A stretch of 64,000 nucleotides of DNA from Salinisphaera shabanensis E1L3A. GTDB lineage: Bacteria > Pseudomonadota > Gammaproteobacteria > Nevskiales > Salinisphaeraceae. The translations under genes and the position numbers were made by a program. How positions within the stretch are numbered: position 1 is the first letter of the stretch; every line of letters begins with the position of its first letter. Below the pieces are notes generated by a model. That model did not search any database. It was not told the DNA's origin and was given only the letters and a program-made list of their open reading frames with translations. The DNA is taken from positions 1 to 64,000 of the forward strand of contig NZ_AFNV02000013.1 of the NCBI RefSeq assembly GCF_000215955.2. Reading direction: 5' to 3'. Below, piece by piece: positions 1,271 through 42,622 of this stretch.

Positions 1271-1918
1271 ACGCTCGCGATCGCCGGCCTGACGCCGCTG
1301 ATCGAACAGCGATCGCGCCACGGCGCCGTCACCACCGCCGCGCTGAGTCGCGCGATCGGGCTCGAAGACAAACCCGACCTCGCGCCATTCGTACGTTTCT
1401 ACGACACGATCGACCGTATTCTCCCCGAGGCCATCCTGGTCGGGGATTCCACGACGCCGGTCTACGCGGGCAACCATTTCGTTCAACGCCCGCGGGTTCG
1501 CCGCTGGTTCAACGCCTCTACCGGTTACGGCACGCTCGGCTATGCGCTGCCGGCCGCCGTTGGTGCGCGGCGTGCCTGCCCCGGTCAACCCGTAGTTGCG
1601 CTGGTCGGCGACGGTGGCCTGATGTTCACGCTCTCCGAACTGGCCACCGCGGTGGACGCACAAACGCCCATTATGGTGATCGTCTGGAACAACGTCGGCT
1701 TCGAGGAGATACGCGCTGCGATGGATGCCGCAGGCGTCGCACGTTGCGGGGTCGACCCCGTGCCGCCTGACTTCGAAAGCCTGGCCGACGCATTCGGGTC
1801 GGCCTACGCAGCAGTTGGCGATACGGGCGCGTTGGAAGCCGCGCTGCTCGCGTTTGTAAAAACACCGCGTGTCACGCTTATCGAGATCGATGCCGAGGCC
1901 TGGATGGCATCCGGGTAA
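1271..1918 (+). pseudogene. Thiamine-diphosphate decarboxylase/acetolactate-synthase family, 3' fragment (AruI-like)
   Basis: About 215 residues match the C-terminal catalytic domain of ThDP enzymes: the binding motif GDGG followed about 27 residues later by WNN, preceded by NASTGYGTLGYALPAAVG. The VGDSTTPVYAGN segment resembles 5-guanidino-2-oxopentanoate decarboxylase (AruI, arginine transamination pathway) more than acetolactate synthase, though this is from memory of the family. The N-terminal and middle domains are missing: the open frame begins inside the opposite-strand sigma54 gene with no plausible start. It is therefore a 5'-truncated remnant. Confidence 0.7.
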
Positions 1919-2186
1919 CCCGTCTTGTAATGCCTTGGCGCGTCGTGGCGTGAGCCAGCACCAATGGCTCGATCAGGGCGCGCCAACGACTTCAGCCTGA
2001 GTCACCACCCTATCCCCGAACTGGCGGTTACTCGGTCGATACGCCGGCGCGGTTCGCGCACGAACAATGCACGCCCCGTGGCATAGTAATGGAAGCCCGC
2101 CGGTCGTAACCATCCCTTAACGCAGCGTTAGCGCGGAATCTACCTGGTGAGCCACACCTGTTCGATCGATTGCTTGTTCGGATTCA

Positions 2187-3953
2187 ATGACCGATACCAA
2201 CGTCATTCTCTTTTTTGTCGGCCTGCTACTTTTTCTGAGTGTGGTCGCCAGTTCGTTATCGCGCTTCGGGCCGCCGTTGCTGCTTATCTTTCTGATAGTG
2301 GGCATGCTGGCGGGCCAGGACGGCCCTGGCCAGATCGATTTCGACAACGTGCCGCTGGCGTTTTTCATCGCCAATCTGGCCCTTGCCATCATTCTGCTCG
2401 ACGGCGGGTTGCGGACCCACCTGCAGACGTTCCGCGTTGCGCTGTGGCCGGCCTTGTCGCTGGCCACCTTCGGTGTACTGATATCGGCATCGCTGGCGGG
2501 CGCATTCATCGCCGTGTGGCTGGACCTCGACTGGCGCTATGGACTGCTGCTGGGCTCGATCGTAGCCAGTACCGACGCGGCAGCCGTGTTCTCGCAGCTG
2601 CGCAGTTCGGGCGTCACGCTCAACCAGCGTGTCAGTGCCACACTCGAAATCGAGTCGGGCACGAACGATCCGATGGCCATTTTCATGGTCACTTTCCTGC
2701 TGGCCACAATCGATGCGAGCAAGGGCTTCAACGCCTCGAGCATCGCCAGCGAAATCGTATCGCAGTTCGGTATCGGTATCGCGGGCGGCCTGTTGCTGGG
2801 CTATGGCCTGTCTTTTCTGGCCTCGCGCATGCGCTTGGTGGAAGGTCTCTATGCACTGCTGGTCGCCTCCGGCGGTCTGATGGCGTTCACGGCGATCAAT
2901 CAACTCGGCGGCAGCGGCTTCCTGGGCATCTATCTGGTGGGCCTCATCGTCGGCAACCGGCGCAACCACGCGTCGGAGCATGTCTTCCGCGTGATGGACG
3001 GCCTGGCATGGCTCGCGCAGGCCGGCATGTTTCTGGTGCTCGGGTTGCTGGTCAATCCGCACCAACTCTGGGCGCACGCCGGATCGGCGATCCTGGTGGC
3101 CGCCTTTCTGATGTTCGTCGCCCGTCCGCTGGCCGTCTGGTTAAGCCTTCTGCCCTTTAATTTCCCGTCCCGTGAACAGGGTTTCATTGCCTGGGTCGGC
3201 TTGCGCGGTGCCGTGCCAATTGTGCTGTCGCTGTTCCCGCTCATGGCAGAACTCGAGGGCGCCCAGTTTCTGTTCGATATTACCTTCGCGGTGGTACTGG
3301 TATCGCTTATCGTCCAGGGCAGCTCGCTGGCCTGGACCGCGCGCCAACTCAAGCTACAGGTGCCCCGAGAACCGGGCCCGACCGCCAGTTTCGGCTTTCT
3401 AGGCCAACGCGGGCACAGTTATGTATTGCTGGCTTTTCGTATCCAGACCGCATCGAGTCTCGCGGCTACCCAGGGCGACGCGCTACACCGCTTTGAGGGC
3501 TTGCGCTGCATCGCCGTAACACGAGCGGCGCACCTGCTTTTCCCCAAAGAGCATTTCGTATACGCGGTAGGTGATCTGCTGTATCTGATCACACCGGCGC
3601 ATCATAGCGATGAACTCGGCAAACTATTTCGCGGTGATACGAAACATGCGCCGCAAGCGCGCCGCTTTTTCGGCAGCTTCACCTTGCGTGGGGATGCGCC
3701 GATATCCGAACTGGCCGGCATTTACGACCTCGGCCTGGCCGAACGGGACTGGGATCTTTCGATTGCGGATTACATGCGCCGCCGTCTCAAGCGCCGCCCG
3801 GTCGAGGGTGATGTGGTCGATATCGACAGCCTGCGCCTGACCGTACGTTCGCTACATGCCGGCATCATCGAAACGGTCGGCCTGCAGCTGCGAGAACCCG
3901 AGGAGGCCGAGGGCGACCACAAGTCGCACAAGCGCCGGAACCGGCGTCATTGA
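2187..3953 (+). CDS. K+(Na+)/H+ antiporter, NhaP2/CvrA type
   Basis: This 588-residue protein has about twelve hydrophobic segments in residues 1-390, typical of the CPA1 exchanger fold, including the ion-binding pair N160-D161 in ESGTNDP. After it comes a roughly 190-residue cytoplasmic tail, the length and composition expected for the TrkA-C/CorC-like regulatory region of NhaP2-type transporters. Such proteins sit in the inner membrane and exchange K+ or Na+ for protons in pH and osmotic homeostasis. The start is ATG 2187 with a poor ribosome-binding site. The gene stands alone and meets yqiB tail to tail 7 bp away. Confidence 0.88.
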   Translation: MTDTNVILFFVGLLLFLSVVASSLSRFGPPLLLIFLIVGMLAGQDGPGQIDFDNVPLAFFIANLALAIILLDGGLRTHLQTFRVALWPALSLATFGVLISASLAGAFIAVWLDLDWRYGLLLGSIVASTDAAAVFSQLRSSGVTLNQRVSATLEIESGTNDPMAIFMVTFLLATIDASKGFNASSIASEIVSQFGIGIAGGLLLGYGLSFLASRMRLVEGLYALLVASGGLMAFTAINQLGGSGFLGIYLVGLIVGNRRNHASEHVFRVMDGLAWLAQAGMFLVLGLLVNPHQLWAHAGSAILVAAFLMFVARPLAVWLSLLPFNFPSREQGFIAWVGLRGAVPIVLSLFPLMAELEGAQFLFDITFAVVLVSLIVQGSSLAWTARQLKLQVPREPGPTASFGFLGQRGHSYVLLAFRIQTASSLAATQGDALHRFEGLRCIAVTRAAHLLFPKEHFVYAVGDLLYLITPAHHSDELGKLFRGDTKHAPQARRFFGSFTLRGDAPISELAGIYDLGLAERDWDLSIADYMRRRLKRRPVEGDVVDIDSLRLTVRSLHAGIIETVGLQLREPEEAEGDHKSHKRRNRRH

Positions 3954-12605: not shown

Positions 12606-13376
12606 TCATGGCCGGCCACGGCCGATCGGCACACCATCGGCTTCCAGCGCGTTCACGAGCGCTCTGAACGCATTATCGGCCGCGACCGGGCTTCCCCGTA
12701 CCCCAAATTCGATAGATCGTTTACCGCTGGCGCTGGGCAAACAGGCGATACGAACATCGGGGTGCGCATCCATGACGTGTTGCATAAGATCGATGAGCGC
12801 GCTTTCGGGGGTGTCGAGCACTTCCAACAGCCGCTCGACGTTGCGCTCCTCGCGCTGAAGATGCGCGTAGTGCGTATCCAGAACCCACTCGACCATGGGC
12901 CAGGCCATATTCGGGAACCCCGGCACGAAATGATGGTGGCCAAACGAAAACCCCGGCACCTGATTGACCGGATTAGGAATTACCCGGGCGCCCACCGGCC
13001 ATTCCACCATATGAATACGTTTGGGATAGGCTTCGTCGCCAAATCGGGCTTCCAGTAAGGCCCGCCCTTCGGCATTGAATTCGAGGGCGACACCAGCAGC
13101 AGAGGCTGCGCATTGGCGGGTTCGGTCATCGGGCGTTGCACCGATACCGCCGAAGCTGAACACGATATCGCTGCTGCGCATCGTTTCGCGCAGAGTCTGT
13201 TCGAGAAGGCCGGCATCGTCGCCCACCATACGTGCCCACGACAGTTCCATACCGCGCGCGTCGAGAATCTCGATAACGCGGGGCATATGCTTGTCGCTGC
13301 GCTTGCCGGACAGCAGCTCATCGCCAATCAGCACGATGCCGATACGCTCCGGCGCAGAACATGGCCTGTGATCCAC
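12606..13376 (-). CDS. CinA/MoaB-type molybdopterin-binding-domain protein
   Basis: The protein consists of a single MoCF-biosynth fold of the CinA N-terminal type (COG1058): IGIVLIGDELLSGKRSDKH, then SFGGIGATPDDRTR, plus a C-terminal extension. It lacks the CinA nicotinamide-mononucleotide amidase domain. The frame is open to 13451, but that start would lie inside the icd terminator. The chosen GTG at 13376 has AAGAGG about 10 nt upstream and gives 256 residues. Competence/damage annotations exist for relatives, but no activity can be inferred here. It lies downstream of icd on the same strand, beyond the terminator. Confidence 0.8.
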   Translation of the reverse strand: MDHRPCSAPERIGIVLIGDELLSGKRSDKHMPRVIEILDARGMELSWARMVGDDAGLLEQTLRETMRSSDIVFSFGGIGATPDDRTRQCAASAAGVALEFNAEGRALLEARFGDEAYPKRIHMVEWPVGARVIPNPVNQVPGFSFGHHHFVPGFPNMAWPMVEWVLDTHYAHLQREERNVERLLEVLDTPESALIDLMQHVMDAHPDVRIACLPSASGKRSIEFGVRGSPVAADNAFRALVNALEADGVPIGRGRP

Positions 13377-13410
13377 TCGGTACGAAGCCTCTTGAATATT
13401 CGATAGATAC

Positions 13411-13439
13411 AAACAAACAGGCCACGTAAAAACGTGGCC
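13411..13439 (-). terminator. Rho-independent terminator after icd
   Basis: Two perfect 8-bp arms, GGCCACGT (13420-13427) and ACGTGGCC (13432-13439), flank a 4-nt loop. On the minus strand a T-rich tail (tgtttgtttg) follows. It sits 30 bp past the icd stop. Confidence 0.8.
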
Positions 13440-13468
13440 CGTTCGTATCACTTCATGTCATGCCGACA

Positions 13469-15238
13469 TCAGGCCTCGGGCAGCCAGCCGGACTGCTCGA
13501 TGGCACCGAAAATATCGGTTTCGGTGGTGATGCCCATCGGCTCGCCATCCTTGCCCGCTACCAACAGACGACTGATATTTTTCTCGGCGATGGTATTGGC
13601 CGCTTCCCGCAGATGCGTTTCCGGGGCGACGGTCACCACCGGACGCGAAGCAATCTCGCCAACGGTAATATCGGTCGGCGATTTACCTTCGCGCACGATC
13701 TTGGTGACGATATCGCGACGGGTCATGATGCCCCACTCGCCGGAATCGTTCGGCTCAACCACCAGCGAAGACACCTCGTTCTTGCGCATCTCGTGCATGG
13801 CGTCGTGCACGCTGGTGTCGTCGGTGACGGTAATCAGCGTACGCGTCATCACATCCGACACGCTCGTGGGCGTGCGTCCGCTGGCGATCATCTCTTCCAT
13901 GGGCTGCAGCAGACGACGGATTTCACGCTGCTTGCGCTCGCGGGCGAGTTTTTCGCTGCGCTGCTTGCGCTTGGTTTCCAGGTCGATACCGCCGTTGATC
14001 TGCTCGATCAGCGCATCGGCGAATTCCTTGGTGCCGACTTCGGTGGCGCCTTCCATGTTGCGGGCGAAATCGTAGGTCACGATCTTGTCCGCGAGCACTT
14101 CCGGATAGGCCAGCGAAATCAGGTCGGCAGCTTCCTGCCAGCCGATGTATTCGAGCATGTTCACACCCGAGAACAGCAACGAACCCGGGTTGACCTTGTT
14201 CTTGTCGGCGTACTTGGGTGCGGTGCCATGGGTCGCCTCGAACACGGCGATGTTGTCGGACATGTTCGCACCGGGTGCGATACCGATACCGCCGACCTCG
14301 GCCGCCGCGGCGTCCGAGAGATAGTCGCCGTTGAGGTTCATGGTGGCCAGCACGTCGAAATCATCCGGGCGCAGCAGCATGAGCTGGAAGATGATGTCGG
14401 CGATGCGATCCTTGATCACGATCTTGCCTTCCGGCTGACGACCGTTGTACTCGGAGTAGAGCTGGTCCTCGGTGATCGTGCAGTGGCCGAATTCCTCGCG
14501 GGCGACTTCATAACCCCAGGCACGGAAGGCGCCCTCGGTGAACTTCATGATGTTGCCCTTGTGCACCAGCGTCACCGATTCGCGGCCGTTGTCGATCGCG
14601 TACTGGATGGCCTTGCGCACAAGTCGCTTGGTGCCGAATTCGGAAATGGGCTTGATGCCCAGGCCGGCATCGTCGAAAAAGTCGGCCTTCATTTCCTCCT
14701 TGAGGAACTTGGCGAGCTTCTTGTTCTCGTCGGTGCCCGACTGGTACTCGATACCGCAGTAGACGTCTTCGGTGTTCTCGCGAAAGATCACCACATCGAC
14801 CTTGCCCGGGTCCTTGAGCGGAGACGGCACGCCGGCGTAGTGGCGTACGGGGCGCACGCAAGCGTATAGGTCCAGCTCCTGACGCAGGGAGACGTTGAGC
14901 GAACGAAAGCCCTCGCCCACCGGCGTGGTCAGCGGGCCCTTGATCGCGACCCACAAGTCCTTGATCGCTTCCAGCGTTTCGGCCGGGAAGTAGTCGCCGT
15001 CGTAGACCTTGGCCGCCTTTTCGCCCATGAAAAGCTCGGCCCAATGGATCTTGCGCTTGCCGCCATAGGCTTTCTCGACTGCCGCGTCCCAGATGCGCAG
15101 ACAGGCCTTGGTGATATCGGGGCCGATCCCGTCGCCCTCGACATAGCCGAGAATGGGGTTGTCCGGCACATTCATCTGATCGTTTTCGACGGTGATCTTC
15201 TGACCGTCTTCGGGCAAGCGCACGTGCTTGTAGGCCAT
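13469..15238 (-). CDS. icd: NADP-isocitrate dehydrogenase fused to C-terminal tandem CBS domains
   Basis: Residues 1 to about 420 align over their whole length with E. coli-type homodimeric isocitrate dehydrogenase (isocitrate + NADP+ to 2-oxoglutarate + CO2 + NADPH): IEGDGIG-like [10 protein letters not shown], the substrate and AceK phosphorylation segment [13 protein letters not shown], and NADP-binding [16 protein letters not shown]. After a basic helical linker (about 423-455, rich in K, R and E) come two CBS repeats, about 460-515 ([13 protein letters not shown]) and 524-580 ([17 protein letters not shown]). CBS pairs usually bind adenine nucleotides, so allosteric control by energy charge is inferred. 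Usual Icd length is about 416; this is 589, in one uninterrupted frame with uniform codon use. Confidence 0.95.
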
Positions 15239-15267
15239 GGGCCACTACTCCTTGTATATCTCGCGAC

Positions 15268-15299
15268 AAAAAGCACGCCGCCGGCGATTGCCGGCGGCG
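15268..15299 (-). terminator. Rho-independent terminator after grxD
   Basis: Ten-base arms (15276-15285 and 15290-15299) enclose a 4-nt loop. On the minus strand they are followed by GTGC and then TTTTT. It lies between the grxD stop and the icd start, so icd probably has its own promoter in the remaining short gap or relies on read-through. Confidence 0.8.
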
Positions 15300-15311
15300 C
15301 TGGAATTCGTA

Positions 15312-41293: not shown

Positions 41294-42622
41294 TTGGACG
41301 CCATTTCCTTGCCGGTGCTATTCGGCATACTGCTCTTGATGCTTGTGTTATCGGCCTTTTTCTCGGGCTCCGAGACCGGGTTGATGACGCTCAACCGCTA
41401 CCGCATGAAGCACCTGGCCAAAACCGGCCATGGGGGCGCATCGCGGGCCGCACACTTGCTCGATCGGCCGGACCGACTCATCGGCCTGATCCTGTTGGGC
41501 AACAATCTGGTCAATATTGCGGCATCCGCGGTCGCTACGGTGATCGGCATCCGCTTGTTCGGCAACGTGGGCGTGCTCGTAGCAACCGTCACGCTCACGG
41601 TGTTCGTGCTGATCTTTTCCGAAGTCACGCCGAAAACGCTGGCCGCATTGCACCCCGAGCGTGTGGCCTACCCGGCTTCGTATGTCTACACGCCCCTGCT
41701 GCGTGTGGCATGGCCGCTGGTCATGGTGATCAATCTGGCCGGCAACGGCATCCTGCGCCTGTTCGGTGTCTCGGCCGACGATGCCGCCGCGCATTCCCTG
41801 TCCTCCGAGGAACTACGCACCGTGGTGACCGAGGCAGGCGCAATGATTCCGCGCCGACATCAGCAGATGCTGTTGTCGATCCTGGACATGGAAAACGCCA
41901 CGGTCGAAGACATCATGGTGCCGCGCAACGAAATTGTGGGCATCGATATCAGCAAGTCGTGGCCGGAGATTCTCGAGCAACTCGTACACAACCAGCACAC
42001 GCGCCTGCCGATCTTCGACGGTTCCATCGACGAGCTGGCTGGCATCGTACATATGCGCCGTGTGCTTGCATTGGTCTCGGATGACAACCTCGACAAGGAC
42101 GCCCTGCTTGGCCTCGCGCGTGAACCGTACTTCGTGCCCGAAGGCACGCCGCTCAATCAACAGCTGCTGAATTTCCAGAACCAGCAGCGTCGAATTGGTT
42201 TTGTGGTGGACGAATACGGCGATATCCAGGGCCTGGTCACGCTTGAGGATATCCTCGAAGAGATCGTGGGCGAGTTCACGACCGATCCTGCCACGCGCGT
42301 AAAAAACGTCTATATGGACGGTGACGACAGCTATCTGGTCGATGGCACGGTCACGCTGCGCTCGATCAACCGTGCCATGGGCTGGAAGCTGCCGGTGGAC
42401 GGACCGAAGACGATGAACGGTCTGATCACCGAGCATCTGGAAACCATTCCTCAGCCCGGCACCAAGCTCAAGGTCGGCAAGTACATACTCGAAATCGCAC
42501 AGACGCGCGCAAATCTGGTTCAGACCGTGCGTGTAAAACCGCCCAAGCGCCGTGTGCGGCGCGCACCGGGCGAGGATTTGAATTCAGACGACAAAGCCAG
42601 CAAAGCTGACACCGAGCGTTAG
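41294..42622 (+). CDS. corB: CNNM/CorB-family transporter with CBS and CorC domains
   Basis: This 442-residue protein has an N-terminal DUF21 membrane domain (about 5-180, FSGSETGLMTLNRYR, GNNLVNIAASA), a CBS pair (about 200-325, EDIMVPRNEIVGIDI and the second repeat ending VDEYGDIQGLVTLEDILEEIVGE) and a C-terminal CorC domain. Family members export or regulate Mg2+ in an ATP-sensing manner. The start is TTG 41294 with AGGG about 8 nt upstream. The ffh-ypjD-corB neighbourhood matches the E. coli arrangement with yfjD. Confidence 0.92.
   Translation: MDAISLPVLFGILLLMLVLSAFFSGSETGLMTLNRYRMKHLAKTGHGGASRAAHLLDRPDRLIGLILLGNNLVNIAASAVATVIGIRLFGNVGVLVATVTLTVFVLIFSEVTPKTLAALHPERVAYPASYVYTPLLRVAWPLVMVINLAGNGILRLFGVSADDAAAHSLSSEELRTVVTEAGAMIPRRHQQMLLSILDMENATVEDIMVPRNEIVGIDISKSWPEILEQLVHNQHTRLPIFDGSIDELAGIVHMRRVLALVSDDNLDKDALLGLAREPYFVPEGTPLNQQLLNFQNQQRRIGFVVDEYGDIQGLVTLEDILEEIVGEFTTDPATRVKNVYMDGDDSYLVDGTVTLRSINRAMGWKLPVDGPKTMNGLITEHLETIPQPGTKLKVGKYILEIAQTRANLVQTVRVKPPKRRVRRAPGEDLNSDDKASKADTER

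Follow-up and report, generated by a model that had tools for sequence, protein, structure and literature searches.

The window (the whole stretch of DNA analysed here: 64,000 nucleotides of contig NZ_AFNV02000013.1 from Salinisphaera shabanensis E1L3A) carries on its reverse strand an icd-CBS fusion gene at 13469..15238, with an ATG start, a TGA stop and a translation of 589 residues that has zero inner stops. Three parts can be distinguished, all on the minus strand. Residues 1-414 (13997..15238) form an NADP-isocitrate dehydrogenase (Icd), delimited by Pfam, NCBIfam, and PDB sequence and fold comparison: the Pfam Iso_dh domain spans residues 32-409 (288 bits, cut-off 27), and the NCBIfam model for NADP-Icd, TIGR00183, matches residues 3-414, the full length of the Icd family, at 642.5 bits, above its curated cut-off of 567.3. 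A basic linker follows at residues 415-460 (13859..13996), placed by alignment and by a helix predicted at residues 420-444. Residues 461-589 then hold two tandem CBS domains, the arrangement of a Bateman module: CBS domain 1 (13694..13861) scores 48.3 bits and CBS domain 2 (13499..13663) scores 52 bits, each above the Pfam CBS cut-off of 24, and the two stretches together reach 89.5 bits. The first-pass annotation of this DNA had described a full-length E. coli-type NADP-Icd joined in one uninterrupted frame to a basic helical linker and two CBS repeats; each of these parts is borne out, and its coordinates are exact. Elsewhere in the window, a CNNM/CorC-type transporter (41294-42622, plus strand) combines CBS with CorC_HlyC domains.

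Sequence reading places a probable ribosome-binding site, AAGGAG, 9 nt 5′ of the ATG (15248..15253, minus strand). Terminator-like hairpins lie directly 3′ of icd-CBS (13413..13446, minus strand) and behind the gene upstream, which by eye resembles glutaredoxin (15275..15300, minus strand); these are consensus matches, of which the region scanned holds 5 against 2.4 expected from shuffles. Because they flank the gene on both sides, icd-CBS may form a separate transcript. The region scanned yielded no sigma-70-like promoter. Downstream, at 12606-13451 on the minus strand, lies a gene for a molybdopterin-binding (CinA N-terminal-like) protein that scores under the CinA family cut-offs, and homologues of it adjoin icd in four other loci (L005, L008, L170 and L171).

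The taxonomic spread of the architecture, which the first-pass annotation had proposed to look up, extends over the order and the wider class. A whole-protein search covering the order's 85 genomes (G000-G084, among them that of the window) found the full-length fusion in 43, which come from five family groups. In a sample of 369 genomes of the class, the fusion occurs in at least 22, two of them inside the order; the 20 or more outside it belong to 13 further family groups, and since matches were listed down to about 1e-154, more distant fusions could be missed. Among 398 genomes of a phylum sample, searched at E <= 1e-175 (a threshold that misses distant fusions), four genomes matched, all from the same class and two of them fused, and no fusion was found outside the class. 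Among the best 80 matches in named genomes, beyond which other carriers may exist, Aquisalimonas lutea and two metagenome-assembled genomes add three fused records. In total, Icd-CBS spans at least 18 of the family groups sampled in the class, as at least 66 distinct proteins (the window's included), each encoded by one uninterrupted frame. An assembly or frameshift artefact, for which nothing was found in favour, has a negligible probability: 65 other proteins share the open frame, which excludes chance or misassembly, rules out a frameshift or chimeric contig and leaves no stop between the two parts; a stop or frameshift there would have refuted the first-pass reading.

Two possible origins were rejected. 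Plasmid records matching the query number 610, but the 10 listed matches span the Icd part only (69-72% of the query), and 2 of the 610 have one place covering at least 80% of it. A standalone CBS gene beside unfused icd was likewise dismissed as donor: when the CBS part was run by tblastn against unfused loci with identity above 66%, a single match at chance level came up (33%, E 0.36), shared by two loci of one genome that overlap. Among the 60 of 108 PDB matches listed, none is a chain combining Icd and CBS, and titles and abstract starts in the open-licence literature describe no Icd with a CBS or Bateman domain, in line with the first-pass impression that no characterised enzyme has this architecture, although domain databases may list it. 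Icd-CBS is a real, conserved and apparently undescribed enzyme variant, for which a regulatory role is a well-founded proposal.

By score and residues, the fusion protein is an NADP-dependent Icd of the prokaryotic dimeric type. Lys342 is kept in 65 of the 66 fused rows, and Tyr343, Tyr389 and Arg393 in all of them; we take Lys342 and Tyr343 (after HGTAP) and Tyr389 and Arg393 (in TYDFxR) to confer NADP specificity. The linker has its own fixed points: E439, R442, P446, G454 and P457 are identical in 66/66.

The CBS part is the least conserved (mean top-residue frequency 0.66 and 0.62 in the two domains versus 0.86 in Icd), but its conservation is concentrated where a ligand would bind. The ribose-phosphate motif of CBS domains is given as G-h-h-S/T-x-x-D/N in the available part of PMC11172384. 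By that definition it occurs as GIMTRRD in CBS1 (residues 503-509, 13712..13732, minus strand) and as GITTETD in CBS2 (residues 569-575, 13514..13534, minus strand). In 63/66 fused proteins both domains retain the G, S/T and D/N of the motif (CBS1 63/66, CBS2 66/66), three having lost the CBS1 motif glycine; all 66 share Thr506, Asp509, Gly569 and Asp575 and have Thr or Ser at residue 572. Near-invariant positions are over-represented in the motifs (4 of 6 versus 10 of 129 in the CBS part overall; hypergeometric p 0.0003). The putative ligand pocket, whose loss would have counted against the first-pass proposal of adenylate sensing, keeps its motifs. For the CBS part, nine of nine pairs give a dN/dS of 0.07-0.48, which indicates purifying selection; in each pair the Icd part is lower still (0.03-0.16), a difference that fits a functional but faster-evolving CBS module.

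Because a structure search with the full model returned Iso_dh-type chains only, the CBS part was folded alone (mean pLDDT 88.5). The predicted model has the fold of a CBS pair: its nearest neighbour is CBS-CP12 (PDB 5nvd; Z 20.6 over 129 residues, 29% identity), followed by CBSX2 with AMP (Z 17.3), the AMP and ADP form of AcuB (17.0), MJ0100 with MTA/SAM (17.0), PAE2072 with AMP (16.8) and the Ap4A form of AcuB (16.2). MJ0100 and Ap4A-bound AcuB are about as close as the AMP binders, so the pair might sense another adenosyl ligand (SAM/MTA, Ap4A or c-di-AMP) and not the AMP/ADP/ATP ratio. Sequence would look the same in either case, but adenosine and guanosine phosphates are named as the commonest CBS ligands in the available part of PMC11172384, and we regard a different ligand as rather unlikely. 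The pair might also serve mainly in assembly or docking, through tetramers, filaments or partner binding, with no adenylate kinetic switch. CBS-CP12 crystallised as a hexamer and the CBS protein DarB binds pyruvate carboxylase and Rel, according to the available parts of their reports, and the five fixed linker residues would suit such a role; mere scaffolding, however, needs no intact ribose-phosphate motifs, and their retention makes this reading unlikely.

The history of the tail was traced on a tree of the Icd part only (73 rows). All 45 fused rows fall with 14 unfused rows in one branch (bootstrap 98, SH-aLRT 86), and the fused and unfused states need six changes on this tree and likewise on a quick 91-row tree. 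One gain of the CBS tail with several losses fits the Icd tree, and the six changes suggest that the tail was probably lost about five times, although the count itself is blind to gain versus loss. Two cases favour loss. Locus L152 (genome G259), whose family group also has fused members, can be aligned up to about residue 435, through the linker, where it ends with no CBS domains (tail RKERKAAIEQERNDL); we read it as a half-way loss, a natural truncation that keeps the linker. Loci L170 and L171 (G014 and G016) come from the window's family, in smaller genomes, and share with the window the clade starred on the Icd tree; their icd stops near residue 420 and has no CBS tail. Gene order there is that of the window (superoxide dismutase, glutaredoxin, icd, CinA-like; the first two by eye), except for one additional gene that separates superoxide dismutase from glutaredoxin in the window. 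These loci look to be a clean excision of CBS between the same neighbour genes, and provide a natural unfused control. Six changes, some five probable losses and the persistence of unfused Icd in sister lineages are also what a roleless passenger, retained by chance since a single fusion, might leave behind; purifying selection, conserved motifs and occurrence in at least 18 family groups speak against this, and make it very improbable.

The textbook case of a bacterial enzyme regulated through protein phosphorylation is Icd, the target of AceK, and the first-pass annotation had offered the CBS module as an alternative or an addition to this control. AceK (PF06315) was found in none of the 85 genomes of the order, the window's included, in a search in which the E. 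coli control matched and 3 of 15 other class members, none of the three fused, had AceK. Among fused genomes outside the order, 2 of 23 hold an AceK homologue, both low-scoring (PF06315: 203 bits in G296 and 200.9 bits in the genome of L040); other complete matches in the class sample score 314-424 bits, except G176 (218.5) and a second copy in G442 (195.8), while G218 and G192 have short AceK pieces. The G296 homologue also falls under the NCBI AceK cut-off (426.6 versus 488). At locus L183, in a genome with fused Icd, the low-scoring homologue is full-length and has both AceK Pfam domains (1504-3282, plus strand). Over all fused genomes, a full-scoring AceK occurs in 0/66 and a low-scoring homologue in 2/66, a division made after the scores were seen. 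Because AceK is absent from all 85 genomes and low-scoring in the two elsewhere, the CBS module looks like an alternative to AceK rather than an addition to it. The segment GFRSLNVSL is still present, as had been noted at first pass, and Ser113 (codon at 14900..14902, minus strand), which from its RSLN context we take to be the equivalent of the AceK target serine, is kept in 66/66 fused rows. It is not evidence for AceK control, since it is invariant in genomes without AceK too and is a substrate-binding residue.

AceK is present in 7 of the 18 tree rows for unfused near relatives, and the 11 without it include G134, whose contig ends 191 nt after icd, and G089, which is 62% complete. Fisher tests, which ignore relatedness, separate fused from unfused rows (full-scoring AceK, 0/45 versus 7/18, p 5.8e-5; any AceK, 2/45 versus 7/18, p 0.0014). 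With six independent pairs in a phylogeny-aware test, full-scoring AceK differs in 1.1 on average, always in the expected direction, and counting the two low-scoring homologues gives 1.0 each way: with relatedness taken into account, the contrast is not significant, there being too few independent events.

AceK occurs in 56/369 class-sample genomes, and its position was considered as a further sign of exchange. In G350, G240 and G376, aceK follows icd in the same orientation; in G350 about 0.2 kb separates the two frames, and both Pfam domains identify the second as AceK. The idea that aceK stands in place of the CBS tail is weakened because no fewer than seven other genomes, whose unfused icd is more distant (G149, G238, G280, G317, G348, G383 and G443), have the two genes in this order on one strand, so adjacency is a general arrangement. 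It is possible, if doubtful, that in one lineage of gammaproteobacterial Icd AceK in trans and an adenylate-sensing CBS pair in cis are alternative energy-charge controls of the same enzyme that were exchanged at least once. AceK accompanies 5/6 tree rows of an unfused clade that sits within the fused Icd, which is the ground for supposing an exchange; the icd-then-aceK order with distant unfused icd slightly lowers the odds.

While aceK, one of two genes that the first-pass annotation singled out for checking, is missing from the window's genome, the other, for isocitrate lyase, is there (PRK06498.1, 1018.5 bits). It lies at L187 (364-1968, minus strand), is of PRK06498 type and scores under the cut-offs of two other isocitrate lyase models. 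With PF00463 at E <= 1e-18 (weaker matches, probably methylisocitrate lyase, being excluded), isocitrate lyase was found in 40/43 fused genomes of the order and 18/20 of the class. The window's genome also encodes a second isocitrate dehydrogenase, of another type, at L189 (873-1886, plus strand; 337 aa, PRK08997.1, 551.4 bits, cut-off 510). Within the genus (G000-G013), the fusion (6/14) and monomeric Idh (PF03971, the other 8/14) are mutually exclusive. Of the order's 85 genomes, 28 carry the fusion only, 38 PF03971 only (among them G016, with a weak broken match beside its unfused icd), 15 both and 4 neither (among them G014, which holds unfused icd); in the 23 further fused genomes, monomeric Idh exceeds its cut-off in one.

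Architecture, conservation, both motifs, predicted fold, absence of AceK and presence of isocitrate lyase have been established directly for Icd-CBS; from these we infer its ligand, direction of effect, oligomer and physiological role. The reading we favour, at somewhat better than even odds, is an in-cis adenosine-nucleotide switch on Icd, with flux set by adenylates instead of AceK. The fusion would be the genome's only E. coli-type NADP-Icd, and its C-terminal Bateman module would bind adenosine-type nucleotides and thereby alter Icd activity; cellular adenylates would in this way directly govern flux at the isocitrate branch. Through the long basic helix, an Icd dimer could join two CBS pairs, or two dimers could form a tetramer, the CBS pairs assembling as a four-domain disc across the dimer or between dimers; such discs are general CBS behaviour according to the available part of PMC11172384. 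Nucleotide between the CBS pairs would shift the helix and hence the opening of the active-site cleft. By analogy, the likeliest sign is that AMP and ADP would activate or release inhibition and ATP would inhibit; in E. coli, low energy keeps Icd active, which is the energy logic of AceK. Against an adenylate switch stand the other ligands of CBS pairs (SAM/MTA and c-di-AMP among them), the three lost CBS1 glycines and the second, PRK08997-family dehydrogenase, which may share the work in the window's genome; and because 11/18 unfused tree rows also do without AceK, the module is dispensable. How isocitrate is split in class members without AceK is known in few cases, and Icd-CBS would offer a testable answer for one large such group, with unfused relatives as natural controls lacking the tail.

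Several known systems bear comparison. Like E. coli-type NADP-Icd (TIGR00183), the fusion has the whole catalytic part, Ser113 and the NADP-type residues, and the fold of its Icd part is close to PDB 2iv0, 5m2e and 1cw1 (Z 46.9, 44.9 and 44.9); unlike it, those PDB chains end near residue 416, and E. coli Icd is controlled by AceK. CBS-CP12 (5nvd) differs in that CBS is fused to CP12, not to an enzyme. IMP dehydrogenase with a Bateman domain (e.g. 7qdx) is likewise a dehydrogenase carrying a CBS pair. In it the CBS pair is inserted in the catalytic barrel, whereas in Icd-CBS it is C-terminal to the Iso_dh fold. Mycobacterial Icd resembles Icd-CBS in metabolite control at the same branch point without AceK: the available part of PMC4999502 describes a glyoxylate rheostat without phosphorylation, models the effector near the catalytic site and describes no CBS control. 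The CBS-domain pyrophosphatase (CBS-PPase) offers another parallel. The CBS pair is an insert there and a C-terminal tail in Icd-CBS, the catalytic families are unrelated, and nucleotide effects have been measured for CBS-PPase whereas Icd-CBS is known from sequence and predicted fold; but CBS-PPase too is a metabolic enzyme whose CBS pair bears G-h-h-S/T-x-x-D/N motifs, and its family has CBS domains in some species and lacks them in others (available part of PMC11172384).
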